The position numbers and the translations under genes are program-made. Under the pieces are notes generated by a model. That model saw nothing but the letters and a program-made list of their open reading frames with translations, searched no databases and was not told the origin of the DNA. A stretch of DNA of 53,653 bases from an uncultured Lachnospiraceae bacterium (GTDB lineage: Bacteria; Bacillota; Clostridia; Lachnospirales; Lachnospiraceae). Shown in pieces: positions 7,793-40,496 of the stretch. The stretch lies in contig CANQRU010000022.1 in assembly GCA_947626395.1 (NCBI GenBank), positions 1 through 53,653 of the forward strand. Reading direction: 5' to 3'. The number at the start of each line of letters is the position of its first letter. Positions within the stretch are counted from its first letter, which is position 1.

Positions 7793-7806
7793 ATCAGCAC
7801 TCTCCT

Positions 7807-9138: not shown

Positions 9139-9247
9139 ACTTGTAATACCCTTTTGTCCTTTCCTTTTATTGTTATGCCGGCCTGCATACTACAAGTTCC
9201 GCTTGTACCATCATTTTCAAACAATATCCCCACCAATGAACCATCCT

Positions 9248-9928
9248 CTATATAACTGTCCATACTGTACGAAGCATAGTTCCTACTTCTCTCCAGAACC
9301 CATATCTCCGTACCGCTTCCAGATTACATTTCATCTTCCCCGGCAGCACCTGCTCCACATACACCTTATCCACATCTTCCGCATTCTCCAGCAGCTCCGC
9401 CTCATCCTTATACCGAATACTGGCTTCGCTTGTAATCCCCGCAGGGAGCAGTAATGTAGCACGCATCTCCTTCGTGTACTTTCTCACATACTTCGGTACC
9501 TCCGGCCGAGTCCCCACGAAGCTCATATTTCCCTGCAGTACATCGATCAGTTGCGGGAGCTCGTCCAGCCTGCAGCCCCGCAGCTTCGCTCCAACCTTCG
9601 TGATCCGGCTGTCTCCGCCCACTGTTACCGCGGAGCCGATCCGATCCGCATGATCCACCATCGTCCTGAATTTATGTATCCGGAATTTCCTGCCGTATGC
9701 CGTGACCCGCTCCTGGCGGTAAAAGACCGGCCCCGGCGAGTCCAGCCGAATCATCACCGCTATGACTGCCATCGGAAGCGCCAGAAATACCAGAAGCACC
9801 GCAGCCGCAGCTATATCGAACAGGCGCTTCGCGTAAAGGCTGCCCTTCTTCCGGCTCAGGATATCGTAATACACCCTGACCTCATCGCATTTCATGAACT
9901 CAGGCAGTTTTTCCCAGTCTCTCAGCAT
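9248..9928 (-). CDS. Priming undecaprenyl-phosphate sugar phosphotransferase
   Basis: 226 residues of the bacterial sugar transferase (polyprenyl glycosylphosphotransferase) family, the short single-domain form. One membrane segment (about residues 34-60) is followed by the conserved core: SPGPVFYRQERV, FRIHKFRTM, and the C-terminal DELPQL and GTRPEVP blocks. It moves a sugar-1-phosphate from UDP-sugar to undecaprenyl phosphate, starting each repeat unit on the cytoplasmic face. The gene overlaps the aminotransferase by 29 nt. Its own GGGAG site is inside that gene, so the two are translationally linked and may supply and use the same amino-dideoxy sugar. Confidence 0.92.
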   Translation of the reverse strand: MLRDWEKLPEFMKCDEVRVYYDILSRKKGSLYAKRLFDIAAAAVLLVFLALPMAVIAVMIRLDSPGPVFYRQERVTAYGRKFRIHKFRTMVDHADRIGSAVTVGGDSRITKVGAKLRGCRLDELPQLIDVLQGNMSFVGTRPEVPKYVRKYTKEMRATLLLPAGITSEASIRYKDEAELLENAEDVDKVYVEQVLPGKMKCNLEAVRRYGFWREVGTMLRTVWTVI

Positions 9929-11363
9929 CCGTTCTGCTTCTCCCTGTTACCTCTTCCACCGTCTCGCGAAAACATTCCGACACATACTCCACATCTTCAT
10001 CCGTTAGCCTCGTGTGCAGCGGAAGCGTGACTTCATTTGCATAGTACCGATATGAATTCGGAAAATCCGTGATATCCCATCCCAGGTTCTTATACGCTGT
10101 CATCATCGGAAGAGGCTTGTAATGGACATTGCAGGCAATCCCATGTTCTGCCATCCCCGTGATGACCGCATTTCTCTGCTCCACGCTGATTCCCGGAATC
10201 CGCACCAGATACAGATGGCCGCTGCCGCAGAAATCCTTCCCGGAATGCACCAGATGGCTAATGCCCAGACTATCGCAGACGTCGTCATATTTTTCTATGA
10301 TCTCCCTGCGTCTGGCAAGCAGACCAGGATATCTTTCCAGCTGCTTTAGGCCGAGCGCCGCCATGATGTCGGTCATGTTGCATTTATAAAATGGCGCCAC
10401 GATATCGTATTCCCACGCCCCCAGCTTCGTCTTCGCCAGCGCATCCTTCGACTGGCCGTGAAGGCTCAGAAGCTGGTACATATGGTAGATCTCGCTGTCA
10501 TCAATCCCTTCGATATGCCTCCAGGCTGCCGCGCCGCCTTCCGCTGTCGTGAAATTCTTCACTGCATGGAAGGAGAAACTGGTGAAATCAGCCGCGTTTC
10601 CAGCCATACTGCGGCATTTCTGCGCGTCTGTCACTGTCATCCCAAACAGCCTGTCTGACCGTCCATCCGATAATTCATCCATGTTTCCGTCCAGCCGCTG
10701 CTGTCTGGCTGCGCAGGCATCTGTCTGGCCTGTCCGTGTTCTTGTGCCGGATTCAGAGTTACCTCCCACGCAGAGTTCCCTCCATGCGCCCAACGCGTGG
10801 GCACAGTCCGCTACAACTGCAATCCTTCCAAGAGCCTTCTGGATGCGTCTGCCCAGATCCGTATTTCCACCGGGTCTGAACAGGTTCCTCTTATTTTCCA
10901 CTGCCTGATAGATCCGGTCATAGTCGCACATGACGCCGCCCAGATCTACAGGGATGATCGCCTTTGTCTTCTCCGTGATGGCCGCTTCCATCTGGTCATA
11001 ATCCATTTCGCAGCTGTCCGGCTGGGAATCGATGAACTTCACTGTGGCCCCCACATGGATAGCGGCGGATGCTGTCGCGGTATATGTATAAGCCGGAACC
11101 AGAACTTCATCTCCCGGTCCTATCCCAAGAACACGCAGGCTCAGCTCTTCTGCCGCGGTCGCGGAATTCAGGCAGACCATATTGGGAGTTGTCTCCGGCG
11201 CTCCCACATACGCCGCCAGTCTCCGCTCCAGCTCTTTCGTCCGCGGGCCGGTAGTAATCCATCCGGACCGAAGCGCTTCGCTGACTTCCGCGATCTCGAG
11301 ATCGCTGATATCCGGTGGACTGAAATCGATTTTCCGTTTGCCGGTTTCATTATCCGTTATCAT
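9900..11363 (-). CDS. DegT/DnrJ/EryC1 PLP-dependent sugar aminotransferase
   Basis: Adds an amino group to a 4-keto-dideoxy nucleotide sugar, the step after the 4,6-dehydratase encoded upstream. The PLP lysine is K269 in SFHAVKNFTT. The N-terminal fold region (SGWITTGP, LNSATAAEEL) and the C-terminal NVHYKPLP motif are typical. At 487 residues it is about 90 longer than usual. Most of the excess is a Gly/Ser/Thr/Arg-rich insert at about residues 195-255, between AHALGAW and ADFTSFSF, just before the PLP loop. The ATG has TGGAG 7 nt upstream. The ISL3 element sits 21 nt before the start codon, so this gene depends on read-through across the IS or on a promoter in it. Confidence 0.9.
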   Translation of the reverse strand: MITDNETGKRKIDFSPPDISDLEIAEVSEALRSGWITTGPRTKELERRLAAYVGAPETTPNMVCLNSATAAEELSLRVLGIGPGDEVLVPAYTYTATASAAIHVGATVKFIDSQPDSCEMDYDQMEAAITEKTKAIIPVDLGGVMCDYDRIYQAVENKRNLFRPGGNTDLGRRIQKALGRIAVVADCAHALGAWRELCVGGNSESGTRTRTGQTDACAARQQRLDGNMDELSDGRSDRLFGMTVTDAQKCRSMAGNAADFTSFSFHAVKNFTTAEGGAAAWRHIEGIDDSEIYHMYQLLSLHGQSKDALAKTKLGAWEYDIVAPFYKCNMTDIMAALGLKQLERYPGLLARRREIIEKYDDVCDSLGISHLVHSGKDFCGSGHLYLVRIPGISVEQRNAVITGMAEHGIACNVHYKPLPMMTAYKNLGWDITDFPNSYRYYANEVTLPLHTRLTDEDVEYVSECFRETVEEVTGRSRTDAERLGKTA

Positions 11364-11384
11364 ATTGCATCTCCATCTTAATTT

Positions 11385-11407
11385 GGTTCTTCTCCAAAAC
11401 TTGGTGA
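11385..11407 (+). repeat. ISL3 left terminal inverted repeat
   Basis: Begins GGTTCTTCTCCAAAAC. It is the inverse complement of 13662-13684 with three mismatches in 23 bases. Shared consensus of the first 20 positions: GGYTCTTCTCYAAAASTTGG. Confidence 0.95.
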
Positions 11408-11548
11408 TTCTTCTCCATTTCCTGGTGTTTCACCAACTTTCATAGAAGATCTTCTCCATTCTTGGGGGATGCACAAAAGCTTCTCTCTTTTCTGGTGTTT
11501 CTTTGACATTCCCCGCGTTTCCTAGAAGAGCTTCTCTCTTTTGTGGTG
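11407..11548 (+). repeat. Iterated terminal-repeat-like sites in the IS left end
   Basis: After the terminal repeat, the CTTCTC...TGGTG pattern recurs at about 11410-11427, 11451-11467 (degenerate), 11480-11497 and 11531-11548. One copy is inverted at about 11430-11448 (CACCAACTTTCATAGAAG). With the terminal repeat this makes six related sites within 165 bp. The likely role is multiple transposase binding, as known for other IS and Tn families with complex ends. The right end shows only one copy. Confidence 0.7.
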
Positions 11549-11558
11549 TTTTCACTCT

Positions 11559-11664
11559 GTTAGTGATCTTTTTAGCCATAACTGCTGACTTTCTGTTATT
11601 CTTATTTCGCCATAAAAAATAAATTTAAAGGAGGTTAACAGTTATGGCCACAAAGATCACTAAC
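11559..11664 (+). promoter_or_regulatory. Long hairpin sequestering the transposase start codon
   Basis: Arms 11559-11584 and 11639-11664 are complementary at 24 of 26 positions with a 54-nt loop. The right arm contains the transposase ATG (11644-11646). The loop ends with the AAAGGAGG ribosome site. A transcript entering from outside the IS would include both arms and hide the start. A transcript begun inside the loop would lack the left arm and be translated. IS10 and IS50 are known to protect themselves this way from impinging transcription. I did not find a convincing promoter inside the loop. Confidence 0.75.
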
Positions 11665-12963
11665 AAACTCATTTCTCTTCCTCAGGATGTCTCCATCGAC
11701 CGCGTCGTGGATCATCCCCATTCCATGGAGATCTTCATCTCCTGTCCTGACACGGAACGGCTCTGCCCGGTCTGCGGCTCCCCCCACTGTGTCATCAAGG
11801 ACTCCGGCCGCTCCCTCACCGTCCGGCATGTCTCCGTCGCCGGCAAGGGCTCTTTCCTCTCATTCCATGTCCCGAGGCTCCGCTGTAAGCAATGCGGTGC
11901 CTCTTTCTCCGCCAGGCCTTACTTTGTTCACCCTTCCATGAAACTCTCCGCTGCCGCCTTCCTCGCCGCCTGCGTCGGCCTTACCGGCACCCGCTCCATC
12001 CGCGACATCGCCATTGACAATGGGCTCGCCGAGCAGCAGGTCCTCTCTGTCCTCTGCTCCGTCGACTTCCGTAAGCCGCCCTCTCTCCCCCGCACCCTCT
12101 GTATCGATGAGTTCAAGGGCTCTTCCGGCTCCTACGATCCGGATTCACACCGTTGGAATGTCAGCCGTTTCCATTGCAACATTTCCGACGGAGGGTTCGG
12201 CTGCGTCGTCGATGTCCTCCCACAGATCTCCCTGGACTTCCTGCTCTCCTATTTCATGGACTATTCCCTCGAGGAACGCAGGCGCGTCCGCTTCTTCTGC
12301 TGCGACATGCACGGCGGCTTCATCTCCCTCGCCAAACGCTGTTTCCCCGATGTTAAGGTCTGCGTCGACATGTTCCATGTCGTCAAACTCCTGAATGACA
12401 ATGTCTCCGACATCCGCCGTTCCTTACAGAACTCCTTCCGCTCCCGCGGTGATGAGGAATCCTACCAGCTCCTCAAACGCTCCTCCAGGCTTCTCACCAC
12501 TTCTTCCTTTAATAAGGAAACTTACTGGGGAACCTCCTTCAAGCTCAAAGAACGGCAGCTGGAACGCGTCCTCACCCTCTCCAACCATCTCAGGGAGGCC
12601 TATAACGCCCTCCAGGAATTCCATTCCATCCTTCAGGAGCCTTCCTACTCCGAGCAGCGCGACGCACTTACCCAGTGGCTCTCCACTTACTCCGCCTCCG
12701 ACTGTGATGGCACCAGGCGCTGCGCCGGCTCCATCCGGCGCCACCGCTCCTATATCCAGAACAGCTGGAAGTACGGAAAGTCCAACGGTCCCTGCGAGGG
12801 CCTCAACAACCGCATCAAGGTCCTCAAAAGGAACTGTTATGGTCTCCATGATTTCGACCACTTCCGCCGACGTGTCCTCTTCTCCTGCGGCCATACGAAG
12901 CTCATCAGGGAAACCTATACCAACGCGCTGGAACTGGCCGGTAAGGAAAGGAGGGATGGATAA
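11644..12963 (+). CDS. tnp: ISL3-family transposase
   Basis: 439-residue DDE transposase that cuts and joins the IS ends. The N-terminal zinc-binding domain is CPVCGSPHC...CKQCG. A helix-turn-helix region follows, then the DDE_Tnp_ISL3 core. Candidate acidic residues are D155 (CIDEF), D221 (CCDMHGG) or D242 (VCVDMFHVVK), and E385 (GPCEGLNNRIK). No frameshift is visible. The start ATG has GGAGG 9 nt upstream. The stop overlaps the next start in the sequence TAATG, so the second gene is translationally coupled. Expression is probably limited by the start-codon hairpin. Confidence 0.95.
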   Translation: MATKITNKLISLPQDVSIDRVVDHPHSMEIFISCPDTERLCPVCGSPHCVIKDSGRSLTVRHVSVAGKGSFLSFHVPRLRCKQCGASFSARPYFVHPSMKLSAAAFLAACVGLTGTRSIRDIAIDNGLAEQQVLSVLCSVDFRKPPSLPRTLCIDEFKGSSGSYDPDSHRWNVSRFHCNISDGGFGCVVDVLPQISLDFLLSYFMDYSLEERRRVRFFCCDMHGGFISLAKRCFPDVKVCVDMFHVVKLLNDNVSDIRRSLQNSFRSRGDEESYQLLKRSSRLLTTSSFNKETYWGTSFKLKERQLERVLTLSNHLREAYNALQEFHSILQEPSYSEQRDALTQWLSTYSASDCDGTRRCAGSIRRHRSYIQNSWKYGKSNGPCEGLNNRIKVLKRNCYGLHDFDHFRRRVLFSCGHTKLIRETYTNALELAGKERRDG

Positions 12964-13403
12964 TGGCACGGGGAAAACGCTTTTCTGTCCATGACCTCTA
13001 CCCGGAGGACTACTGCTTCGACTATGACGCGTTCGAGGCGGATCCGGAAAACTACAAATTTACCGCGGAAGACAACGCGTATCTGAACGCCATTGAACTG
13101 GAACGCTATGAGGATACCGTCCCCATGACACCCTATGAACGGCGGCTTCTGCGCAGATGGGTCATCTCCGGCCACAGCGTCCATGACAATCCCGGCTCCC
13201 GCTATATCTGTATCGCCAGACACCATCCGGTCAGCGATTTCCTGGATGTTTACCGCATGGACCGGGAGATCCGGGCCGCCACCAGGGGCATGACCCCGAA
13301 GGAGCGGGAGGCGTACCTGAAGGACTATACCGGCTGGAAGGACGACCCGCCGGATGAGGGGGATTCATTCCTCCCAGTGAATGAGGACGAGCCGCCATTT
13401 TAG
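12963..13403 (+). CDS. Unrecognised IS passenger protein coupled to the transposase
   Basis: 146 residues, soluble, with no membrane segment or signal peptide. I do not recognise the family. Both termini are acidic (for example DYDAFEADPENY near the start and PVNEDEPPF at the end), around a basic middle (PYERRLLRRWV). Aromatic residues are frequent. Its ATG overlaps the transposase stop by one base (TAATG), and a GGAAAGGAGGG site lies just inside the transposase gene, so the two are co-translated. It lies wholly inside the element. An accessory role in transposition, or as a regulator of the transposase, is inference from position only. Confidence 0.8.
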   Translation: MARGKRFSVHDLYPEDYCFDYDAFEADPENYKFTAEDNAYLNAIELERYEDTVPMTPYERRLLRRWVISGHSVHDNPGSRYICIARHHPVSDFLDVYRMDREIRAATRGMTPKEREAYLKDYTGWKDDPPDEGDSFLPVNEDEPPF

Positions 13404-13661
13404 GGTGCCGGCAGCGATATGTCCATCACCATATCTCCATCCTTATCAGCCACATAAAGGGGGTGAAGCTTCAAAAATCCCATCAAAAAAAGGGCCTTCA
13501 CGGTCCTCCTAATGTACTTAGCCCTGACCATGATACACCCAATATCCAGCCTGAAAAACGTCCTTCGTTCGTCAGGTCTGGTTAAGGTATGCCATTTTTA
13601 CGTTTTCATCGATATCAGATCCCTCCAAACCATTGATTTTGCGTGGTTTTCTCAATGTCTG
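13404..13661 (+). other. Non-coding right-end region of the ISL3 element
   Basis: About 258 bp between the passenger stop and the right terminal repeat. I see no credible gene and no clear terminator with a U-run; a GTGAAG...CTTCAC pair near 13465-13500 could form a weak stem. The last 50 bases are shared with the IS fragment at the window start. Confidence 0.6.
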
Positions 13662-13684
13662 TCACCAACTTTTAGAGAAGAGCC
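13662..13684 (-). repeat. ISL3 right terminal inverted repeat
   Basis: Reads TCACCAACTTTTAGAGAAGA then GCC on the plus strand. It pairs with 11385-11407 (20 of 23) and is followed directly by the second copy of the CTTAATTT target duplication. Confidence 0.95.
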
Positions 13685-13780
13685 CTTAATTTCTTGTATT
13701 CATGCACAATGCAGCAAGCCTGTCAGTTACGGATTCCTCATAAAATTGACAGTACCCCTTCTATGTTGATAAATATGCGT

Positions 13781-15661
13781 TCATGAGGGGAGTCCCTGCG
13801 GCTGGTATGTCGGTACCATTTCTTTCACCAGTGCCTTCACCTGCTCCGTATCCTGGTTCGCTACTTCATACAGTCTCGCCAGATCCTTTTCCAGCTTCTC
13901 CGCGTCAAACTCAATCGGCCTGCCAATATGGATCAGCTGGTTCGGCGTGTCCTGAAGCCCCTCTTCTCCCATCAGCAGTTCCTCATACAGCTTCTCCCCG
14001 GGCCGCAGCCCCGTGAACTCGATTGGAATATCCACATACGGCTCATATCCGGACAGCCGGATCAGGTTCTCCGCCAGATCCAGTATCTTCACCGGCTTCC
14101 CCATGTCCAGCACGAAGATCTCTCCGCCTTTCGCATACGCCCCAGCCTGCAGCACCAGACTCACCGCCTCCGGGATCGTCATAAAGTACCGGATGATATC
14201 CGGGTGCGTCACCGTCACCGGCCCGCCCGCCTCGATCTGCTTCTTGAACAGTGGAATGACAGAGCCGTTGCTCCCCAGCACGTTCCCGAACCTTACCGCC
14301 ACAAAATCCGTCTCCGATCTGGCGTCCATCATCTGAACCACCATCTCGCAGAGCCTCTTGCTGGCCCCCATGATGTTCGTCGGGTTCACTGCCTTGTCCG
14401 TGCTGATCAGCACAAACCGCTTCGTCCCGTATTTATCCGCCGCCTTCGCGGTCTTGTAAGTACCAAATACATTATTCTTGATCGCCTCACACGGACTGTC
14501 CTCCATCAGCGGCACATGCTTGTGTGCCGCCGCATGGTATACGATGTCCGGACGGTATTTCGCGAAGACGCTCTCCATCCGGTGCGTGTTCCTCACCGAA
14601 CCGATCAGTACCACCAGGTCCAGTTCCGGATGGCTCTCCTTTAGCTCCTGCTGGATATCATAGGCGTTATTTTCATACACATCGAAAATAATCAGCCGCT
14701 TCGGGTTATGTCCCGCGATCTGCCTGCACAGTTCGCTGCCGATCGAACCGCCGCCCCCGGTGACCAGTATCGTCTTCCCGCTCACATAGCCGATGATCTC
14801 ATCCAGATCCACACGGATCGGCTCCCGCCCAAGCAGGTCCTCGATCTGCACCTCCCGCAGTTTCGACACGCTGACCTCATCATTCAGCAGCTGGTAGATC
14901 CCCGGAAGGATCTTCACCTTGCAGTCCGTCTTCTGGCAGATGTCGATGATGTCTTTCCGGTCCTGGGCCGGCGCCGCGGGCATCGCGATGTAGATCTCAT
15001 CCACCCGGTACTTCTCGGCCAGCTTCGGGATATCGTTCCGGTTCCCTTCGATGGGCACACCGTTTAAGATCTTTCCGATCTTATTCTTATCGTCGTCCAC
15101 GAAGCAGACGACCGTATCATTCACAAATGAACTGGTATGTATTTCTTTCAGGATCACGGTACCGGAAGTGCCGGCGCCGACGATCATGATCCTCTTTCCA
15201 TTTTTCCCGCGTCGGCCGGACCCGAACAGCGATACCCAGATCCGGTAGGATAGGCGCACAGCCAGCGCCATCCCGCACAGCACCACGAAGGAGATCAAAT
15301 AGTAACTCCTTGGCACCGAGAACTGCAGGAGCATCATCCCGCCGGTCTGCAGAAGCGCCGCGATACCGCATGTCCCGACGATATTGAGCGCCTCCCGCAC
15401 CCCGGCGGCGCTCCACACGATGTCGTACATTTTCCGGAACAAAAAAACAGCCAGCGTACCGGTGATGTACGTTGGCAGGTACCGTATGACGACAGCTTTA
15501 TATTCCGGCGGCACGGCCGCCCAGCTCAGATCGAACCGGACGATGAGTCCCAGGAATGCGGACAGGCAGATGATCGCGGTGTCGATCAACAGCAATATTG
15601 CCATCTGCGCCCATTTATTCTTTGGAATGTGCCGGTCCCAGAAATCTTTCTTTTGCATCAT
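13781..15661 (-). CDS. Membrane nucleotide-sugar 4,6-dehydratase (CapD/PglF/WbpM-like)
   Basis: 626 residues. About four N-terminal membrane segments (residues 15-140) are followed by a first Rossmann-like domain (VGAGTSG near 163). The catalytic short-chain dehydrogenase domain starts at ILVTGGGGSIGSE (about 290), with the STDKAVNPTN and MGASK segments around the active site. It converts UDP-GlcNAc to a UDP-4-keto-6-deoxy sugar, the substrate expected for the aminotransferase encoded next in the operon. The aspartate/lysine/methionine variant of the active site is typical of this subgroup. It follows loaP by 35 nt. The ISL3 element lies 96 nt after its stop, separating it from the rest of the operon. 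Confidence 0.93.
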   Translation of the reverse strand: MMQKKDFWDRHIPKNKWAQMAILLLIDTAIICLSAFLGLIVRFDLSWAAVPPEYKAVVIRYLPTYITGTLAVFLFRKMYDIVWSAAGVREALNIVGTCGIAALLQTGGMMLLQFSVPRSYYLISFVVLCGMALAVRLSYRIWVSLFGSGRRGKNGKRIMIVGAGTSGTVILKEIHTSSFVNDTVVCFVDDDKNKIGKILNGVPIEGNRNDIPKLAEKYRVDEIYIAMPAAPAQDRKDIIDICQKTDCKVKILPGIYQLLNDEVSVSKLREVQIEDLLGREPIRVDLDEIIGYVSGKTILVTGGGGSIGSELCRQIAGHNPKRLIIFDVYENNAYDIQQELKESHPELDLVVLIGSVRNTHRMESVFAKYRPDIVYHAAAHKHVPLMEDSPCEAIKNNVFGTYKTAKAADKYGTKRFVLISTDKAVNPTNIMGASKRLCEMVVQMMDARSETDFVAVRFGNVLGSNGSVIPLFKKQIEAGGPVTVTHPDIIRYFMTIPEAVSLVLQAGAYAKGGEIFVLDMGKPVKILDLAENLIRLSGYEPYVDIPIEFTGLRPGEKLYEELLMGEEGLQDTPNQLIHIGRPIEFDAEKLEKDLARLYEVANQDTEQVKALVKEMVPTYQPQGLPS

Positions 15662-15696
15662 TATCTACATAAAACCTTTCATTCGGATCGAGGCGG

Positions 15697-16269
15697 TCAA
15701 CCCGCAGCGCTCGCCTGCTCCGGTTCGGAATTCTGCCTGGATAGTACGCCGGTTCCGATATCTTCATTCAGATAAATTCCCAGCGCCGCGGTCTGCTCCA
15801 TGCCAAGGAGCTCCAAGCGGATGATCGCGAACCGTTTTTTGAAGCCCCATTTCAGCACCTGGTCGCTGCATGCTGCCAGCGGCCCGTCAATGGCGTAAAT
15901 GTGTCCGGCCCCGTCGGTCGAAACATAGGACAGACTCACAACGTGATCCGCGTCCTGAATCTGCTCCAGCAGCACGGTCTCAGCCGCGGACAGCGGATAA
16001 CTGGAAAATGCTGTCTCTTCCTCCAGCGTGTCCGCCAGTTCATCCAGCCGCGAATGCACCGCATCCGTCCGATCCGCCGGACACGTCACAAACACGTATC
16101 CCGGGAACAGCGGTTCCACATGCAGGATATTCTGCCGTTCCCTTCGCCAGATCCGCTCGTGGCGGAGCACAAAGCTCTCACAGCCGGACCCTTTCGGCAA
16201 AGCCTCATTGACCAGCGCCGACAGTTCATCCTCGCGGCCGGCCCAGGTTTTAAGTGCGTACCACTGCAT
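15697..16269 (-). CDS. loaP: LoaP-type NusG paralogue, EPS operon antiterminator
   Basis: 190-residue specialised NusG with an N-terminal NGN domain (MQWYALKTWAGRE, then VEPLFPGYVFV). A C-terminal KOW-like region includes DGPLAACSDQVLKWGFKKRFA in place of the usual core. LoaP proteins bind RNA polymerase and a leader RNA hairpin so that long EPS or polyketide operons are read through internal terminators. Position as first gene of a long EPS operon fits exactly. AAAGGAGG lies about 10 nt before the ATG. The 5' leader of about 270 nt holds two hairpins and is preceded by a possible invertible promoter. LoaP read-through may also help transcription cross the ISL3 element. Confidence 0.88.
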   Translation of the reverse strand: MQWYALKTWAGREDELSALVNEALPKGSGCESFVLRHERIWRRERQNILHVEPLFPGYVFVTCPADRTDAVHSRLDELADTLEEETAFSSYPLSAAETVLLEQIQDADHVVSLSYVSTDGAGHIYAIDGPLAACSDQVLKWGFKKRFAIIRLELLGMEQTAALGIYLNEDIGTGVLSRQNSEPEQASAAG

Positions 16270-16307
16270 ATTTCGCCGCCTCCTTTCTTTGGAACTTCAC
16301 ATAAGAA

Positions 16308-16350
16308 AAGCCCACCCGACAGGACATTTAATCCTTAAATGGGTAGGCTT
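16308..16350 (-). promoter_or_regulatory. Leader hairpin before loaP, terminator-like
   Basis: In the loaP-direction RNA, AAGCCUACCC pairs with GGGUGGGCUU (10 bp, one G-U) and is followed by UUCUUAU. Inside the loop is a second perfect hairpin, AUUUAA-GGA-UUAAAU. The structure ends about 38 nt before the loaP start. It could be an attenuator or a LoaP/RNA polymerase recognition hairpin. Confidence 0.55.
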
Positions 16351-16353
16351 CGC

Positions 16354-16389
16354 CATATCCGCGGCTGTTTACAGATAACCCCGGATATG
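16354..16389 (-). promoter_or_regulatory. Second leader hairpin before loaP
   Basis: CATATCCG pairs with CGGATATG (8 bp, perfect), enclosing a small inner hairpin CUGU-AA-ACAG. It lies 4 nt upstream of the terminator-like hairpin. The pair may be a composite RNA signal for LoaP loading. Confidence 0.5.
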
Positions 16390-16536
16390 ACTGCCGCACA
16401 ACGGATACTCCGCCGCGGCCGATATAACCCCGTCCCGGAAGATGTGGCCTTCAGACCCGCCATCTCCACAGTCTGGTTTTACGCGGTGATACTAAGTCAT
16501 TTCCGGACACGGCGGGATATTTCCCCCGAATCCGGC

Positions 16537-16565
16537 GAGAACAACATTTTGTGATAAAATGTTGC
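16537..16565 (+). repeat. Left inverted repeat of putative invertible segment
   Basis: 29-bp repeat, 28 of 29 identical to the inverse complement of 16812-16840. It is itself palindromic (CAACATTTT-GTGAT-AAAATGTTG), as many site-specific recombinase crossover sites are. Confidence 0.85.
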
Positions 16566-16583
16566 TTTCGTCGAAGTCCGGAA

Positions 16584-16612
16584 AGTATTGGAAACCGGTG
16601 AATTTCCGCCAA
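16584..16612 (-). promoter_or_regulatory. Weak leftward promoter candidate toward loaP
   Basis: TTGGCG, a 17-nt spacer and AATACT on the minus strand (each 4 of 6 to consensus). It would give basal EPS transcription in the current orientation. Low certainty. Confidence 0.35.
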
Positions 16613-16766
16613 AAAGCGGACTATGGATCGAAATTCTCAGATACTAATGAAATAGCAGAGAAAATATAAGTTTTCTGTATTATAAAGCTCTGTTAAGCAC
16701 GCCGAAGAACCCTCGAAAAATGGCAGGAATAAAGAAATTATTAAGATTTTCCCATCGGAAAAGGGC

Positions 16767-16795
16767 TTGAAATGTCGCAGAAAAAGTGTTATCAT
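16767..16795 (+). promoter_or_regulatory. Sigma-A promoter inside the invertible segment, facing away from loaP
   Basis: TTGAAA, a 17-nt spacer and TATCAT (5 of 6 in both boxes). Predicted transcription start about 16802, just before the right inverted repeat. In this orientation it reads toward the 3' end of rubrerythrin and has no gene to serve. Confidence 0.6.
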
Positions 16796-16811
16796 CACAG
16801 AGTACTTGAGA

Positions 16812-16840
16812 GCAACATTTTATCACAAAATGTTGCTCTC
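16812..16840 (-). repeat. Right inverted repeat of putative invertible segment
   Basis: Inverse complement of 16537-16565 with one mismatch. The local palindrome extends to 14-bp arms (16808-16821 and 16827-16840) around the 5-nt loop ATCAC. Confidence 0.85.
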
Positions 16841-17045
16841 ATTAATATTAAAATCCTAATGTCGCTGCCACCCGCTTTCTGCAGATTGACGCAATGCGGG
16901 CAGAGCGCCGATGACGCTCTGCCCGCATCCTCATTCTCTGATCACGTTCTGCTCTATATAGCTGCCTGCGCCGTTCTATAACTGTCAGAGGCCGGCCGAC
17001 ACTATCCGCTCAGGCCGCAGCCGTCCGCCCGCGGCACACCAATGA
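16841..17045. other. Intergenic spacer with a perfect 14-bp hairpin
   Basis: No gene seen. Positions 16894-16907 and 16915-16928 form a perfect 14-bp GC-rich stem (ATGCGGGCAGAGCG arm) with a 7-nt loop. There is no U-run on either side. It may still end rubrerythrin transcripts, or stop transcription from the opposing promoter. Confidence 0.6.
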
Positions 17046-17582
17046 TCAATAATTCTCCTTGCGGACCTCGAAATAGCTCTGCGGATGCGCGCACACCGGG
17101 CAGACCTCGGGGGCCTTCGTGCCGACGACGATATGGCCGCAGTTGCGGCACTCCCACACCTGGACGCCGCTCTTCTCAAACACCTGCTTCGTCTCCACAT
17201 TGTTCAGCAGGGCGCGATAGCGCTCCTCGTGGGACTTCTCGATGGCCGCCACGCCGCGGAATTTAATCGCCAGCTCCTTGAAGCCCTCTTCCTCAGCCTC
17301 GTCAGCCATGCGGGCGTACATATCGGTCCACTCGAAATTCTCGCCCTCGGCGGCGTGAAGCAGGTTCGTCGGCGTGTCGCCCAGCTCGCCCAGCTCCTTG
17401 AACCACAGCTTCGCGTGCTCCTTCTCATTGTCAGCCGTCTTTAAGAAAAGCTCGGCAATCTGCTCGTATCCGGCCTTCTTGGCTACAGACGCGAAATAAG
17501 TGTATTTGTTCCTGGCCTGGGACTCGCCGGCAAACGCCTCCCACAGGTTCTTCTCGGTCTTGGTTCCTGCATACTTGGACAT
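17046..17582 (-). CDS. rbr: Rubrerythrin
   Basis: 178-residue cytoplasmic peroxidase of anaerobes, reducing H2O2 through a di-iron centre. The ferritin-like domain shows [21 protein letters not shown] and [11 protein letters not shown] iron-ligand helices. The C-terminal rubredoxin domain has CRNCG and CPVC as the Fe(Cys)4 site. Start chosen at the ATG at 17582, which follows GGAGGATCAAAATT; an in-frame ATG 26 codons upstream lies on the promoter and is not the start. It has its own near-consensus promoter and an operator-like dyad. Probably monocistronic and peroxide- or iron-responsive, as PerR regulation is known for clostridial rubrerythrins. Confidence 0.96.
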
Positions 17583-17616
17583 AATTTTGATCCTCCTTAC
17601 ATGTGTAGATTTAATT

Positions 17617-17633
17617 TTAGTAACTATTCCTAA
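17617..17633. promoter_or_regulatory. Operator-like dyad at the rubrerythrin promoter
   Basis: TTAGTAACTATTCCTAA is an imperfect palindrome (TTAG.AA...TT.CTAA) overlapping and following the -10 box. PerR/Fur-type repressors bind AT-rich dyads in such positions. The match to a PerR box is partial. Confidence 0.4.
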
Positions 17634-17660
17634 TATAGCGCATATGATTGAAAATGTCAA
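17632..17660 (-). promoter_or_regulatory. Rubrerythrin promoter
   Basis: TTGACA, a 17-nt spacer and TATATT, the best consensus promoter in the window. Predicted start lies about 45 nt before the ATG, leaving a short leader with GGAGG. Confidence 0.75.
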
Positions 17661-17679
17661 TCTGTATCCGAAATATTTC

Positions 17680-20022
17680 TCACAACGTCATCAGCCTGCA
17701 CTCCGGCGCCGCCGCGCCGCTGACGCGGATCCCGCCATTTCTGTCAGCACGGATCTCCGTCATATGCCCTTCCAGCGTTTCTCCGCGGCTGATCCCATCG
17801 TCGTCGTACATTTCATAAACCGCCTCATCCTGAATGAAATGCAGCAACGTAAGCTTTGACGCGTCCACGCCGTCTGCATACTCCGCAGGCGCTGCCAGCG
17901 GAACCAGATGATCCGCGCGAACGAAGACCAGCACTTCATTGAGCGCTGCCTTCACGTAATGGTGTCCGGCCGGCAGGATCTCCGCGTCCATGTCGTCCGC
18001 GCTGCACAGCCGGTACATTTTCATCGTCTCCGGCAGGTAGACATAGCGTCCATCCGCATTCTGCCGGTAAATGGGCGCGATCATGAAGCTTTCGCCCACC
18101 ATCAGCTGATCCTCCACCTGTGCCGCCATTTCATCCTCCGGCCAGATGAACGCCAGCGGCATGAACATCATATCGCCGCCAAGCGCCGCCTTCATAAACT
18201 CGCTGTACAGATACGGCAGCAGCGCATAGCGCAGGCCGATGATATTGCGGAAACTCTCTTTATCGCCGAACTGATAGAATTCCTGCCGCCGGGTGCCGAT
18301 GGCCGAATGGTTCCGCATGAGCGGCGTGAAAATTCCCAGTTCCAGCCAGCGCAGCATCATATCTTCCGTCGTGTTGGAGCCGAAGCCGCCCAGATCCGCG
18401 CCGGTGTAAAGGAAGCCGCACATATTCAGCGACGGCAGCATCTGCAGATTCATCAGGATGTGGGACCACCAGGACTGATTGTCGCCCATCCAGATGCCGC
18501 CGTAGCGGTGCATACCGATGTAAGAGGAGCGGGAGAACAGAAGGACTCTCTTCTCCGGCGACAGCTGCGCAAACGCCTCTCCGGCGGCGCGGGTCATATT
18601 GTAGCCGTACAGGTTGTGGACGTGGTCGTGGCGGATCATTTTCCCACCGCAGTTGTGCCGGATCGTCCGGTAGTCCTCCGGCCGGGACGCCAGGTTCATG
18701 AGCTGCGCCTGCAGCGTGAGCAGCTGGCCGATATTCAGCTTGTCTTTGTCAAATTTCCTGACCTCACCGGCGATCTCCTCCAAGTGCTTTTCGGCGTAGA
18801 ACAGCGCCGGTTCGTTCATGTCGTTCCAGAAGCCGTCGATTCCGGCGTCCAGAAGCACCTTGTACCAATTGCCGAACCATTTCCTCGCCTCCGGATTGAG
18901 CATATCGGGGAAATGCACCCGGCCCGGCCAGACGCCGCCGACGAAATCATCGCCTTCCTCATTCTTGCAGAAATAGCCGTTCTTCACGCCTTCCTCGTAG
19001 ACCGGATAGCCGTCCTCGATCTTCACGCCGGCGTCGATGATGGGCACCAGATGGACGTGCTGCTCCTTCATTTCCTCCACGAAAGCCGGGAAATCCGGGA
19101 AACGTTCCTCGTTGACCGTGAAATCCTTGTAGCCCTCCATGTAGTCGATGTCCATGTAGACGCTGTCCAGCGGCACGCCGTTTTCACGGTGCTCGCGGAC
19201 CACCTCGCGCACGTCGTCGGCGCATTTGTAGCCCCAGCGGCTCTGGCCGTAGCCGAACGCCCACCTGGGAGGAATGTAACTCTGGCCGATGATGGAACGG
19301 AACTCCCGCACAATACTCAGCAGGCTGTCTCCTTCCAGGACGTAAAGCGTGAATCCGCCTTCGCTGACGGTGATCGTGAGACGGCGGCGGTCGGTGTAGC
19401 CGCAGTCGAAGGTGACTTTCTGGCTGGCGTCGAGGAAGATGGCGAAACGGCGGCGGTCAGTCAGCGCTGCTTTGGCGGCGGTCTGCGTCTCAGCCGCGGC
19501 TGCAGACTCGACGGCTGGGAATTCCGCCGGTGATGCTACCAGAGTAACGGATTCTGCGGCAACGGAAGCTGCCGATACTGCGGCCGCCGTGGTAGCCTTG
19601 GAAGCAACGCCAACCACCGGTGAACCCGGCGCGGGGCCGTCCACGATCAGGAAATTATGGGCGCCGTAGAGGGAGCGCTTCTCCTCTGTGTGGTTGGGAA
19701 CGTCGGAGCAGTTCGACTCGTAGATCCATCCCCGCTTGTTAATGCCGCGGATATTCTCGCCGAGACCATAGATGCGGTCGGCATCGGACAGTTCGCAGGT
19801 AAAAATGGCCGCCGGAGCTGCCGCACGCTGCGCGAGCACCGCTATAGCCGCGGCGTCCAGCCCTTCGGGAATCCATCCCATACCGTCCAGCGCCGCTGAA
19901 TTCTTATCCGTATTCGTCACCAGGCGAATGTGATCCTCAGTGAACGCTTCCGTCTCCACCGGGATCTGCGCCACTACCGCGTCCGTTTCGATCGGATCAC
20001 CAAATACGTATTTTCGAATCAT
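17680..20022 (-). CDS. GH31 family alpha-glucosidase
   Basis: 780 residues, cytoplasmic (no signal peptide). It hydrolyses alpha-glucosidic bonds of maltodextrin-like or isomaltose-like substrates. The N-terminal beta-sandwich carries [14 protein letters not shown]. The catalytic nucleophile is D401 in WNDMNEP and the acid/base is D543 in GADLGGFG. An Ala/Ser/Thr/Glu-rich stretch at about residues 131-184 interrupts the N-terminal domain between SPVVGV and [11 protein letters not shown] and has no counterpart in typical family members. ATG preceded by GGAGG. It follows the HAD gene by 37 nt, probably in one operon with it and the debranching enzyme. Exact substrate (glucose, xylose or galactose linkages) is uncertain. 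Confidence 0.9.
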
Positions 20023-20059
20023 GATTTTCCTCCATTATGATGATTTTATGAAATTACGC

Positions 20060-20965
20060 TCATACGAGCGGAACTTTTCTTTCTGTATGACCGGTATCGG
20101 TGCACCGGACAGGAATACTCTCGCTATCGGCTCCGCCTCCTTTGAAATGACTCGCACAGAAGCCTTCTCCAGGGGCAGACATATCGCCGCCGCTGTCCTG
20201 CCCTCTGCGGCGCATTGACGCATGTTTATGCCTCACCAGGAACCCGTCCATCCCGGCATTCCGCGCGCCTTCCACATCGCAGACCGCGTCGTCCCCGCTC
20301 ATCAGGCACCGCGGCGGATCCAGTCCGTACGTATCGATCAGGTGCTGGTAGAACCGCCGGTCCGGCTTCTTAAAATATACGTCCGACGACATCAGAATGC
20401 CGTCAAAATACGGCTCCAGCCCGAAGATTCGGAGTTCATTTTCTGTAAATACCCGCTGGGCGTTAGTCAGCAGGTAGACGCGGGCGCCATTTTCGCGAAG
20501 CCGGCGCAGGCGCTCCTTCACCCGCGGGAACAGACGGATATAAACAGTCGTGACGATGCGGAATATCCGGCAGGTCCACAGTACCAGTTCCTCATCCGGA
20601 CAGACGCCTTTATCCGCGTACAAACGGCGGAATACCGCCTCGATGCGGATCTCGGAGGTATCGGTTTCCCGGAAGACTTTTCCGGCTGATCCCCGCCGCT
20701 GCGTTATTTCCCCGGCCGCCTGCGCGCTGATAAATCTCGACCGCACTCCTCCGCTGTGCTCCGCCCAGGATGCGTCCAGCGCCTCGCAAACCGCCGTAAC
20801 GTACGCCTCCCGCAGTTCTTCCGCCCCATAATCCGCGCCGTGATACCAGTAGAGCAGCGCCATTTTCTCCCACACGTTTATGTCTTCCTCATCGGTGCGG
20901 ATATCGATCAGCGTTCCGTACAGATCAAATATGTAATTATCGTAGTGCAGTTTTGTTTCACGCAT
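20060..20965 (-). CDS. HAD superfamily hydrolase
   Basis: 301-residue predicted phosphatase of the haloacid dehalogenase type. Motif I is FDLYGTL with nucleophile D14, motif II YLLTNAQ, motif III lysine in FKKPDRRFY, motif IV GDDAVCDVEGARNAGM. A helical cap lies between motifs I and II and carries a charged insert around residues 85-110. The last 55 residues after DGFLVRHKH are Gly/Ser/Arg-rich and outside the normal fold, which would end near residue 245. Lies between the debranching enzyme (111 nt) and GH31 (37 nt), suggesting a sugar-phosphate substrate from glucan breakdown; that is inference. Confidence 0.85.
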   Translation of the reverse strand: MRETKLHYDNYIFDLYGTLIDIRTDEEDINVWEKMALLYWYHGADYGAEELREAYVTAVCEALDASWAEHSGGVRSRFISAQAAGEITQRRGSAGKVFRETDTSEIRIEAVFRRLYADKGVCPDEELVLWTCRIFRIVTTVYIRLFPRVKERLRRLRENGARVYLLTNAQRVFTENELRIFGLEPYFDGILMSSDVYFKKPDRRFYQHLIDTYGLDPPRCLMSGDDAVCDVEGARNAGMDGFLVRHKHASMRRRGQDSGGDMSAPGEGFCASHFKGGGADSESIPVRCTDTGHTERKVPLV

Positions 20966-21076
20966 ATACGGTCTCCACGATTACGTCAGCGGCATCCGCA
21001 CGCTCGCTCTCACCATGTTCTTCATGCTTACCGCAGCCGCTCCCTCATGGCTCATGCCGGCATACCGCCGCGCTTC

Positions 21077-23440
21077 CTACAAGAATTCCTCGCTCTCCAC
21101 AACTTCATATACCCGCAGGATCTCTCCCACGCTCCACGCCTGCGCGAAGCACCCTCTGGAAAATGCAGGCCGCCCGCCGTCATAGATCTCCGGCAGCTGA
21201 CCGATGCAGCCTTCCCGCATGGCGCTCTCCAAAACCGAAAGCTGCCGCTGCACGGTCTGAACCGCGTCTTTTTCATAGTTTCTGCTCTTCAAATAAGCCA
21301 GGTAATACGCCCCCAACGGGAACACCCACACAGTCCCCTGGTGATACGCCAGATCCCGCGCCCGCAGTTCCCCGCCGTAGGTTCCGTGGAATTCCGGGTC
21401 GTCCATGGCAAGCGTCCGCAGGCCGTAAGGCGTGTACAGCTTCTCGTAGACCGCGTCCACGATTCGCCGCTCCTGCTGCCGGTCCAGCATGGAAAATGGC
21501 ATCGAGACCGCCCAGATCTGGTTGCAGCGGAACTGTTCGTCCGCCTTCGTGCCGGACAGCACATCCTTAAGCCATCCCTTATCTTCCATCCAGAATTTGT
21601 TCAGGAAACTCTCCTTCGTCAGTTCCGCCAGAAACCCGCAGCAGCGCCCGAATGCGGCCGGCTGACTGGCCGGCGGCCAACCGGCGGCAGCAGCCACATC
21701 GTGTTCGCCTGATGATCCGTTCTTGCCCGGCAGTTTGACCTCTCCTGTCACATTCTTTCCGTCCAACGAGTCGCTTCCATCTGGCACTCTGATCTCTCTT
21801 GCCACATTCTTTCCGCCGGATAAGCCGCTTCTCCCCGGCACTCCAGCCTTCGCCGCCCCGGCCGTCGCCGTATCATCCTCAAGGATCTCCGTCTCCCCGA
21901 AATACGGCCCGCTTCCCAGCTTCTCCATCACCTTCAGCGCGTTATACCAGTAAGCGTTGATCTCCACCGGTTTCCCATGCCGCGGCGTAGGCAGATGATC
22001 GCCGATGCGCACATCCATCCAGGTCACCTGGTCGTACTCCTGCCCCGCCTGGATTAATCCGTCTTCGTCCATGCGGATCCCGTAATCGGTTCCGTCCCGG
22101 TACGCCTCGATAATCTGCGCCATCACCGGCCACATTTCCCGCACGAAATCCATATCGCAAGTCCGCGTCACATACGCGAAGACGCTATTGATAAATAAAA
22201 GCGCCGCGTCGGCAGTATTGTACCGCGGCTCCACGCCGCCTTCCGGGAACAGGTTCGGCATCAGGCCCTTCCGGCAGTACGCCGCGAACGTCCGCAGGAT
22301 GCTCTTAGCCGTATCATACTGCCCGGTGCTCATACAGCAGCCTTCCAGCGCGATCATCGTATCCCGGCCCCAGTCCTCGAAGAACGGATACCCGGCCAGG
22401 ATCGTCTGCCCGCCGGTCGATTCCCGTTCGGAAATGAACTGATTCGCACCGGCCGCCAGCTGCCGCGCCGCGTCGGAGACCATCGCCGCGTCTCCGCGCA
22501 GAGACTCCCGGTATTCCGTCAGTTCATCAAATACCTGCCCTGCTGTTTCCGGGAAATCTTCTTCCGTATTGAAAAGGATCTCCAGCACGGTACTTTCGTG
22601 GGCCGGAACCGTCTTCGTGATCTCGCAGAGAACGCAGGTCCGGCCGACGCTGTCGCGGCCGTCGCAGGCGTCATAAGCGTAGTACGCGCCATCGCAAAAC
22701 CGCGGCGTAACCATTTCCGTCTGCCCGTTCGTCCGCAGGTACAGATGCAGCCCGTTCGCGGTGATCTCATATATTTCGTCAGCCTCTGCATATCCTCTGC
22801 CGCATTCTGCAGGCACGCGCTTCTCTGCCTCTAACGCGTTCTTCTCATCCGCCGCCGCACCCTTTCCGCCGCACCGCCTTATCGCAAATACCGGCGCACC
22901 CTTTAGCGTCTGCCCCTTCGGCACAAACTGCATATGAGGCGTTACTGTCAGTCTGATGTCAGCGTCCGTCCGATTATCCACCCGATACTGGACTGCCGCC
23001 AGATTCTTCCCCTGGGCCAGGGCCACCCGCTTCACGACTTCCACGCCGCCCGCCTGAAACGTCCACTCCGGATAATCTTCATATACAAAACTGTTCAGAT
23101 ACAGATAGCCGTTCTCATTCTGCGCCGCATCCGTGAATTCCTGCGAAGACAGATATATGCGGCCGGGATTCTGATCCCCCACAGGCATCGCGGCGCCCGC
23201 AGCCATCTTTTCCATCGCCGCCGCGTCTCCCGTCTCCAGCCGTTCCTCCAGCCGGTTTACCATATTGTACCGCAGATTCGGCGCTCTCAGACTGGCCATC
23301 AGCAGCGCCTGGTCATTTCTTGTATTGGAATTAATCATGGACGCGCTGGAAAAACCGCCGAGCCCATTGGTCAGCAGATATACATTTTCCTGCCCCCGTT
23401 CCCGCGTCGCCCAGTCCTGCCTGCCATATACAAATCTCAT
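21077..23440 (-). CDS. GDE-type glycogen debranching enzyme (amylo-alpha-1,6-glucosidase)
   Basis: 787 residues. The N-terminal domain (NVYLLTNGLGGFSSAS, NTRNDQALL) and the C-terminal (alpha/alpha)6 GDE_C domain with GYPFFEDWGRDTMIALEG are characteristic. It removes alpha-1,6 branch glucose from glycogen or limit dextrin in the cytoplasm. An insert at about residues 520-590, rich in Gly/Ser/Ala/Lys with two LDGKNV/LSGGKNV-like repeats, splits the C-terminal domain between FGETEI and FGRCCGFLAELTKES. GGGGAG lies before the ATG. It is divergent from a LacI-type regulator and heads a likely three-gene operon with the HAD and GH31 genes. Confidence 0.88.
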   Translation of the reverse strand: MRFVYGRQDWATRERGQENVYLLTNGLGGFSSASMINSNTRNDQALLMASLRAPNLRYNMVNRLEERLETGDAAAMEKMAAGAAMPVGDQNPGRIYLSSQEFTDAAQNENGYLYLNSFVYEDYPEWTFQAGGVEVVKRVALAQGKNLAAVQYRVDNRTDADIRLTVTPHMQFVPKGQTLKGAPVFAIRRCGGKGAAADEKNALEAEKRVPAECGRGYAEADEIYEITANGLHLYLRTNGQTEMVTPRFCDGAYYAYDACDGRDSVGRTCVLCEITKTVPAHESTVLEILFNTEEDFPETAGQVFDELTEYRESLRGDAAMVSDAARQLAAGANQFISERESTGGQTILAGYPFFEDWGRDTMIALEGCCMSTGQYDTAKSILRTFAAYCRKGLMPNLFPEGGVEPRYNTADAALLFINSVFAYVTRTCDMDFVREMWPVMAQIIEAYRDGTDYGIRMDEDGLIQAGQEYDQVTWMDVRIGDHLPTPRHGKPVEINAYWYNALKVMEKLGSGPYFGETEILEDDTATAGAAKAGVPGRSGLSGGKNVAREIRVPDGSDSLDGKNVTGEVKLPGKNGSSGEHDVAAAAGWPPASQPAAFGRCCGFLAELTKESFLNKFWMEDKGWLKDVLSGTKADEQFRCNQIWAVSMPFSMLDRQQERRIVDAVYEKLYTPYGLRTLAMDDPEFHGTYGGELRARDLAYHQGTVWVFPLGAYYLAYLKSRNYEKDAVQTVQRQLSVLESAMREGCIGQLPEIYDGGRPAFSRGCFAQAWSVGEILRVYEVVESEEFL

Positions 23441-23502
23441 CTCCGCACTCCCCGCCTTCGGTTCTTATATCCTGCTGTTTTCGTTTGGTTTCCGTCTATT
23501 CT

Positions 23503-23532
23503 ATTACTACCTTTTTATCGGCTGATTGTCAA
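23503..23532 (-). promoter_or_regulatory. Promoter candidate for the debranching-enzyme operon
   Basis: Perfect TTGACA at 23527-23532 on the minus strand, with AGTAAT 18 nt away as the -10 (4 of 6). Divergent from the lacI-type promoter 50 bp away, so both may share an operator. Confidence 0.4.
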
Positions 23533-23571
23533 TATCTTTTTCGAAGACCGGCCAAATCCTTCTGTTTATTC

Positions 23572-23586
23572 TGCAAATGCTTGCTT
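23572..23586. promoter_or_regulatory. Possible LacI-family operator
   Basis: TGCAAATGCTTGC has GCAA/TTGC arms like LacI/GalR-type operators and overlaps the -35 box of the regulator gene promoter, fitting autoregulation. Imperfect, so tentative. Confidence 0.3.
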
Positions 23587-23609
23587 TTTTCCCGATAGTT
23601 TTATATACT
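23581..23609 (+). promoter_or_regulatory. Promoter of the LacI-family regulator gene
   Basis: TTGCTT, a 17-nt spacer and TATACT. Predicted start about 45 nt before the ATG. Confidence 0.6.
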
Positions 23610-23660
23610 TTTATTATGAAATAAGCGAAATGCGGCCAGGCTGAAGCAGGAGTGATGAAT

Positions 23661-40424: not shown

Positions 40425-40496
40425 ACAATCCCCCTCCCGGGCCGCCTGCGCCGGGCAGACGGCCCGAATATTTCGAATATTTCTCCAACCAGTGTC

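Follow-up and report, generated by a model that had tools for sequence, protein, structure and literature searches.

The segment at positions 16537–16840 is, with high confidence, a promoter inverton of the loaP-EPS operon of the window, by which we mean the whole 53,653-nucleotide stretch of Lachnospiraceae DNA that was analyzed. As far as the sequence can indicate, this inverton is in its OFF state in the assembled orientation, is one of a large genus-wide set and is very probably functional. The reading draws on the anatomy of two recombination sites, their inverse cores, the opposite orientation of a related element in a genus-mate (genome G025), a conserved promoter block and the presence of a recombinase in the same genome. 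It supports an earlier note on this DNA, which had proposed a phase-variable promoter at this position.

The element consists of a loaP-proximal site at 16537–16569 (14-nt arms around the core GTGAT, with 12 of 14 arm pairs formed and 2 unpaired arm positions) and a loaP-distal site at 16808–16840 (perfect 14-nt arms, 14 of 14 paired, around the core ATCAC), which enclose a putative invertible segment of 238 bp (16570–16807), none of the three being assigned to a strand. The two sites are inverted repeats of each other, identical at 31 of 33 nt and at 28 of 29 nt over the inner stretch, and their cores are exact reverse complements. The internally palindromic 29-bp repeats described in the earlier note, with 28 of 29 positions identical, are thereby confirmed, as is the gene-free segment, which measures about 246 bp with the shorter arms used there and 238 bp between the 33-nt arms. 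A search of the 53.6-kb window for inverted repeats with partners up to 2200 bp apart placed this pair at the top with a score of 27, and 20 first-order resamples of the window reached 19 at most. The element is present in one copy only in the assembly, and no other sequence in the window's genome (G000) matches the site at fewer than 3 mismatches. Partner crossover sites of a tyrosine recombinase need matching cores, whose direction decides the outcome of the exchange: inverted cores lead to inversion. The 14-nt arms around a 5-nt core are the anatomy of such a predicted crossover site, and the window has an inverted pair of these with matching inverted cores, as a promoter inverton requires.

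Inside the segment lies a predicted promoter on the + strand (16767–16795; TTGAAA, a 17-nt spacer and TATCAT, with a TG extension), each box of which holds 5 of the 6 consensus letters. Since the loaP-like gene is on the − strand, the promoter is directed away from it and aims instead at the 3' end of a rubrerythrin gene (17046–17585, −), and in box matches, spacer and direction it is the promoter that the earlier note had described. A bare consensus match of this kind is not beyond chance (1 found against a mean of 1.0 in shuffles), and the weight of the call comes from the conservation of the block in three genus-mates (G001, G002 and G025). Judging by sequence only, this promoter is able to face the regulated gene once the segment is inverted. 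Immediately upstream of the −35 box there is also a palindrome, TTTTCC-N4-GGAAAA (16747–16762, no strand), which is kept in G001 and G002 and degenerate in G025; it is a candidate regulator site, and the invertible promoter may thus also answer to a regulator.

The operon next to the segment begins with the loaP-like NusG paralogue (15697–16269, −), followed on the same strand by genes for a nucleotide-sugar dehydratase of the polysaccharide biosynthesis type (Polysacc_synt_2; 13781–15661), an EPS aminotransferase (9900–11363) and an EPS bacterial sugar transferase (9248–9928), which make up the EPS genes of 9248–11363, an EPS nucleotide-sugar dehydrogenase (7807–9138) and an EPS epimerase (6818–7792), which make up those of 6818–9138, and a Wzy-type polysaccharide polymerase (1970–3505). 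An ISL3-family transposase gene (11644–12963, +) interrupts this series of − strand EPS genes, with a 27-nt imperfect inverted repeat spanning 11558–11665 in the transposase region (11558–12963). Farther along, a 4213-aa open reading frame with SpaA prealbumin-like domains (27783–40424, −) probably encodes a giant surface protein, and a 1189-aa frame beside it (region 27783–44066, −) gives weak matches to choline-binding repeats that fall below the cut-off.

The product of the first gene scores 77.6 bits on the NCBIfam model NF033641, under the curated cut-off of 125, and is accordingly called a LoaP-like NusG paralogue, so that the name LoaP given in the earlier note holds as far as a NusG paralogue resembling LoaP and fails as an assignment to that family. 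It also falls outside the UpxY family (24.1 bits, where the cut-off is 100). The gene is separated from the left site by a 267-nt leader (16270–16536, −) that folds more stably than its shuffles (z of −4.76, with 0 of 200 as good). It contains the box GGCGAAGCCTACC (16342–16354, −) with a predicted hairpin directly before it and, just before loaP, a terminator-like hairpin formed by AAGCCUACCC / GGGUGGGCUU and followed by UUUU (16306–16350, −), which was not reported by a consensus terminator scan allowing loops of 3–8. An Rfam search of 15600–17700 returned 4 matches at E up to 1, all under their gathering scores. A layer of LoaP antitermination at this operon is plausible in view of the structured leader and its terminator-like hairpin.

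The site architecture of the window recurs in public sequence, mainly that of Lachnospiraceae. Exact matches to the arms, with any letters allowed in the core, were found at 32 loci in the genome_contigs collection; 21 of these are titled Lachnospiraceae bacterium and 4 more are named Roseburia, Blautia, Lachnoclostridium and Acetatifactor. For each locus we took the best site and the best second site 60–2500 bp away, scoring only arm letters and leaving the core letters unused, and counted the second site as recognizable at 16 or more of 22 arm letters, which was the case in 24 of the 32. The 5-nt cores are exactly reverse-complementary in 23 of these 24 loci, which are not all independent (one core is common to L024, L036 and L050, another to L028 and L034, and L045 is the G025 locus), and identical, direct cores occur in none; the sole exception (L038) differs at one core position. 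The other 8 loci have no recognizable partner site, and matching cores were found in none of them. Within this site family the core sequence varies from locus to locus. The tyrosine-recombinase signature was found in a frame at 19 of the 32 loci, with the frame between the sites in 17 and beside them in 2 (L026 and L043); among the 17, the upstream end of the longest such frame enters or passes a site in L034, L047 and L053. All 18 sequences in the recombinase alignment (L050 was left out) keep the residues R, K, HxxR, H and Y, and PF00589 was matched by all 5 recombinases scanned. The two loci with a frame beside the sites have the pair upstream of the recombinase gene, not around it, with 423 and 190 bp between sites, a layout that looks as if the switch controlled the recombinase itself. 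A literature text search for the site arms returned, among the matches listed, none that by title concerns invertons, a result that neither supports nor excludes an earlier description.

To place the element among its relatives, we searched it against 61 genomes; beyond its own genome it matches four genus-mates (G001, G002, G023 and G025) and, at a weak level, two genomes of the order. In G025, contig C104 carries a related promoter between two sites of the same type with other cores (GTATG and CATAC), located before loaP and pointing at it (ON), opposite to the promoter of the window. Both orientations are thus found among homologous elements, the comparison being between genomes or loci only (window OFF, G025 ON). 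The likeness is modest, at 78% over 110 bp, a stretch that takes in one 33-nt site, and comparison of the inner segments by themselves yielded no pair at E ≤ 1e-6. G001 and G002 both have the promoter block (84% alike over 73 bp and 82% over 90 bp, respectively) fixed beside rubrerythrin, which by sequence is the window's neighbor too, and pointing away from it toward an operon, where it faces a polysaccharide gene in G001. Neither genome has a site at 2 or fewer mismatches or a recombinase of the family at E ≤ 1e-20, and the contigs with the fixed promoter have no loaP match. The earlier note would have counted it against its reading if relatives had no such repeat pair ahead of loaP, and here the outcome is in favor of the reading: G025 has a pair of this site type, and 51 of 72 loaP loci of the genus have an inverted-repeat pair, of several sequence types. 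Partly against it, G001 and G002 keep the promoter without the sites. G023 has a single site at bases 1–33 of a contig. An apparent site remnant before the G001 leader was set aside, as the match falls mostly within that leader. Within G025, three loaP loci have sites with the same core CATAC, namely a pair with the promoter (C104:3387–3662), a single site with no promoter found in the 420 nt before it (C14:11018–11050) and a single site with a promoter-like match upstream (C134:5037–5059); from their sequence, these are possible docking sites for long-range promoter exchange.

The arrangement extends to the genus as a whole. At E ≤ 1e-10, 18 of the 26 genus genomes have LoaP-like genes, and the resulting 72 loaP loci, including the window, were scanned within 2 kb upstream of the first loaP. 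An inverted-repeat pair scoring at least 15 was found in 51 of these, compared with none of 57 downstream controls, drawn from the loci whose sequence continues for more than 1000 bp past loaP, and 2 of 720 resampled upstream stretches, where the score limit, like the promoter criterion below, was chosen after the first results had been seen. Among the 21 loci lacking such a pair, 6 had 1031 nt or less to scan. A promoter no more than 110 bp from a segment end and pointing at it is present in 46 of the 51 invertons and in 7 of 1020 resampled segments; the five that fail are L103 and a set of four sharing a weaker promoter block (L192, L193, L199 and L200). The 46 scored invertons comprise 8 ON and 38 OFF, the window among the latter, with each assembly representing one state. 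Counted per genome, ON invertons number zero in nine genomes, one in six and two in one, and a rule of one ON at a time was considered. The window's own genome has a pair at all 4 of its loaP loci, with the window (contig C22), C13 and C21 OFF and C4 ON.

Comparison of homologous segments gives a further view of orientation. The 238 aligned pairs, which are not independent, divide into 167 on the same strand and 71 on opposite strands, and promoter directions are opposite in 69 of the 71; altogether 3 of the 238 (2 opposite-strand and 1 same-strand) do not follow promoter direction. Two loci of one genome (L154 and L156) are in opposite orientations and 96% identical over 330 bp. A recombinase gene is enclosed in 22 of the 51 invertons, on the loaP strand in 17 and on the other strand in 5; the frame in L152 runs past the repeat and is not counted. 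The repeats fall into several types, namely GAGAGCAACATTTT (window and G025), TTCAACA, TGTCGTAGAGT, GTCGCTTAAC and GGGGAAAAACC, and those of TGTCGTAGAGT type often enclose a recombinase of about 360–470 aa. Further sites of the TGTCGTAGAGT type, two pairs and one single, occur in the window's genome on contigs with no loaP match (C3:97815–97841, C9:11027–12403 and C15:62280–63733). The loaP-like genes of the genus often stand as tandem pairs (e.g., L138, L139 and L154), with up to 15 matches per genome.

A short box is shared by many of the leaders behind these invertons. The sequence GGCGAAGCYTRCC, allowing one mismatch, is present on the sense strand of 30 of the 51 inverton-headed leaders, on the antisense strand of none of the 51 and in 0 of 42 downstream controls; it also stands in G001 before an operon that lacks a loaP of its own. 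With each leader folded alone, 28 of the 30 have a predicted hairpin whose end lies no more than 5 nt ahead of the box, a criterion that has no control; the stricter version that also asks for at least 5 uninterrupted pairs gives 17 of 30, modestly above the 794 of 3000 obtained with shuffles. Folded singly, the box-bearing leaders reach a median z of only −1.4, and aligning the leader boxes for a consensus fold brought out next to nothing. We infer that the box with its variable predicted hairpin may be a candidate LoaP-target or recruitment RNA element.

It is also important to consider which enzyme could act on the sites. The window holds no match to the integrase model among frames of at least 70 aa, and the region 8001–24000 likewise gave none, which bears out the earlier statement that no recombinase is encoded there. 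The accompanying prediction of a recombinase in trans finds one candidate elsewhere in the genome: G000 has a single member of the family, an orphan with an open frame of 191 aa at G000:C2:133786–134358, which its kinship and co-occurrence with the site make the most likely cognate recombinase. A search with the 18-sequence alignment matched 11 of 26 genus genomes at E ≤ 1e-20, seven near 1e-80 (G000, G004, G008, G018, G020, G023 and G025) and four only near 1e-42 (G003, G010, G015 and G024). The strong recombinases are of two kinds, six at TTCAACA-type repeats and four orphans. The TTCAACA repeat forms an inverted pair in L099, L103, L104, L105 and L106 and one palindrome only in L102, and the recombinases of L099, L103, L104 and L106 lie directly upstream of tandem loaP genes. 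Around the orphans (those of G000, G004, G023 and G025) there is neither a repeat pair that is both long and highly alike nor, in the stretch retrieved, a loaP. In a tree of 31 rows, from which the intended outgroup row L093 was left out for want of a usable frame, the four orphans form one group (support 91/84) beside the TTCAACA group (94/98). The protein of L098:3787–4362 belongs to the tyrosine recombinase family by its 94 bits on PF00589 (cut-off 27.1), and the catalytic R, K, HxxR, H and Y were read from an alignment of relatives and from the orphan sequences.

The distribution of the orphan follows that of the site. The site GCAACATTTT is present at 0–1 mismatch in exactly G000, G023 and G025, all three of which have the orphan recombinase, found in 4 of 26 genomes. 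Under random placement the probability that three site genomes all fall among the four orphan genomes of 26 is 4 in 2600, a value that overstates the strength of the association because the genomes are related. Weighing against the assignment of specificity are G004, which has the orphan and no detectable site (one match at 3 mismatches, a level at which control patterns also match in other genomes), the matches to the site pattern at 2 mismatches in G020 and G021, and the second site type, TTCAACA, on contig C13 of G000, which has no recombinase beside it.

Taken as a mechanism, the switch would operate as follows. A tyrosine recombinase acting in trans, most likely the 191-aa orphan, would exchange strands at both sites by pairing the reverse-complementary cores, and this exchange would flip the 238-bp segment together with its promoter, a process that we infer to be ongoing in the present-day strain. 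In the assembled orientation the promoter faces away from the loaP-EPS operon, which would leave it OFF, and in the flipped orientation it would drive transcription of the structured leader and, behind it, of loaP with the EPS genes (ON). The LoaP-like protein would then probably help the polymerase past terminators in the leader and operon. The outcome would be an all-or-none promoter switch followed by antitermination.

Several other accounts of the element should be weighed against this one. The segment might be a former inverton that is now locked, in which the sites remain without flipping and the operon is permanently OFF or driven from elsewhere. The two unpaired arm positions of the loaP-proximal site would fit such decay, and fixed forms do exist in G001 and G002; against it, the cores are still perfectly inverse, the genome has an open frame for one recombinase of the matching family, and its other three loaP loci also have inverted-repeat pairs, so we consider a locked state improbable. 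Alternatively, the sites may recombine distant loci, through large inversions that move one promoter among EPS operons, instead of or besides a local flip. Megabase inversions in Eggerthella lenta do reposition capsule loci relative to loaP, according to the portions of a preprint used here (PMC13174815), and the core CATAC is common to the three G025 loaP loci on C104, C14 and C134. The shared G025 cores may, however, reflect duplication, as the C14 and C104 leaders are nearly alike, and only this pair exists in the window's genome at fewer than 3 mismatches, so that no distant partner is visible; we accordingly give distant recombination very little credence.

Two further explanations were rejected as extremely improbable. 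If the two palindromes were repressor operator sites or transcription terminators rather than recombination sites, it would be easy to see why each copy forms a strong hairpin and why the right copy is listed as terminator-like, but there would be no evident reason for 5-nt loops that are reverse-complementary within a locus while drifting between loci, nor for palindromes that enclose recombinase genes or segments known in either orientation. A MITE, a small transposable element bounded by terminal inverted repeats, would likewise present such repeats on either side of a small gene-free segment, yet there is one copy in the genome, and in G001 and G002, which lack the sites, the promoter block occupies the corresponding position next to rubrerythrin. 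A promoter inverton thus remains the reading that we prefer.

The best-known case of phase-variable capsules that are encoded at several loci and have a NusG-type antiterminator is Bacteroides, where a genome has several polysaccharide operons, each with a NusG paralogue first and a small invertible promoter in front. In the portions of the published accounts used here, UpxY genes are enriched near Bacteroidota invertons (PMC11892184) and Mpi inverts at least 13 B. fragilis regions, including seven polysaccharide loci (PMC5903667). Polysaccharide operons led by a NusG paralogue behind a small invertible promoter are common to both systems; they differ in that Mpi is a serine recombinase whereas the recombinases linked to the window's family are of the tyrosine type with different sites, that the antiterminator here is LoaP-like and not UpxY, and that the host is a Lachnospiraceae bacterium with several site families per genome. 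From their sequence, small promoter invertons heading loaP-led operons would thus work like the Bacteroides UpxY loci, although in a lineage of Lachnospiraceae, where tyrosine recombinases and LoaP-like proteins take the corresponding parts.

Closer in enzyme type, the tyrosine recombinase RecV of Clostridioides difficile inverts several short regions (cwpV, flagellar), and the section describing it names no antiterminator-led EPS operon (PMC5903667); the likeness to the window's family, a tyrosine recombinase with short invertible regions, is one of description, not sequence. The same holds for inverton group 139, in the part of the source drawn on here, with 32 of 33 members from Clostridia, a link to the nearby tyrosine recombinase group 35 and orientation shifts in reads (PMC11892184), which resembles the window in joining Clostridia invertons to tyrosine recombinases. 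The E. lenta preprint describes megabase inversions that move capsule genes relative to loaP and a LuxR-like regulator, with no recombinase adjoining the breakpoints, and differs from the window in that these are large chromosomal inversions at a different 16-bp repeat (PMC13174815). In Akkermansia muciniphila, a short inverton beside the capsule locus cps1 has a different repeat motif from the window's; its orientation tracks capsule ON/OFF, and a term search of the main text found no NusG, UpxY, LoaP or antitermination (PMC13343947). LoaP of Bacillus velezensis is a NusG paralogue that acts via a leader hairpin and terminator and regulates antibiotic operons, with no invertible promoter described in the sections used (PMC12691694). 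The literature was also searched for LoaP in connection with phase variation or inversion, and for polysaccharide promoters that invert in Clostridia or Lachnospiraceae. Among the matches listed, none describes a small promoter inverton ahead of an operon led by loaP, which leaves such absence unproven, and only the E. lenta preprint joins LoaP to DNA inversion (PMC13174815).

A broader proposal, which we offer tentatively and hold to be possible though rather doubtful, is that this genus independently built the Bacteroides capsule strategy. Most LoaP-led polysaccharide operons would then lie behind tyrosine-recombinase invertons with locus-private cores, each flipping independently and few being ON at once; loaP is often tandem, and the second copy would possibly resemble UpxZ, which is a cross-inhibitor, while shared cores such as those of G025 would also let long-range inversion hand one promoter between EPS operons. 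That a Lachnospiraceae genus has the same two-layer design, at many loci in each genome and with another type of recombinase, suggests that evolution was convergent, perhaps driven by phages or by the immune system. The defined recombination sites, with their readable ON/OFF state, become usable in metagenome surveys, and the link between promoter inversion and LoaP antitermination becomes directly testable.
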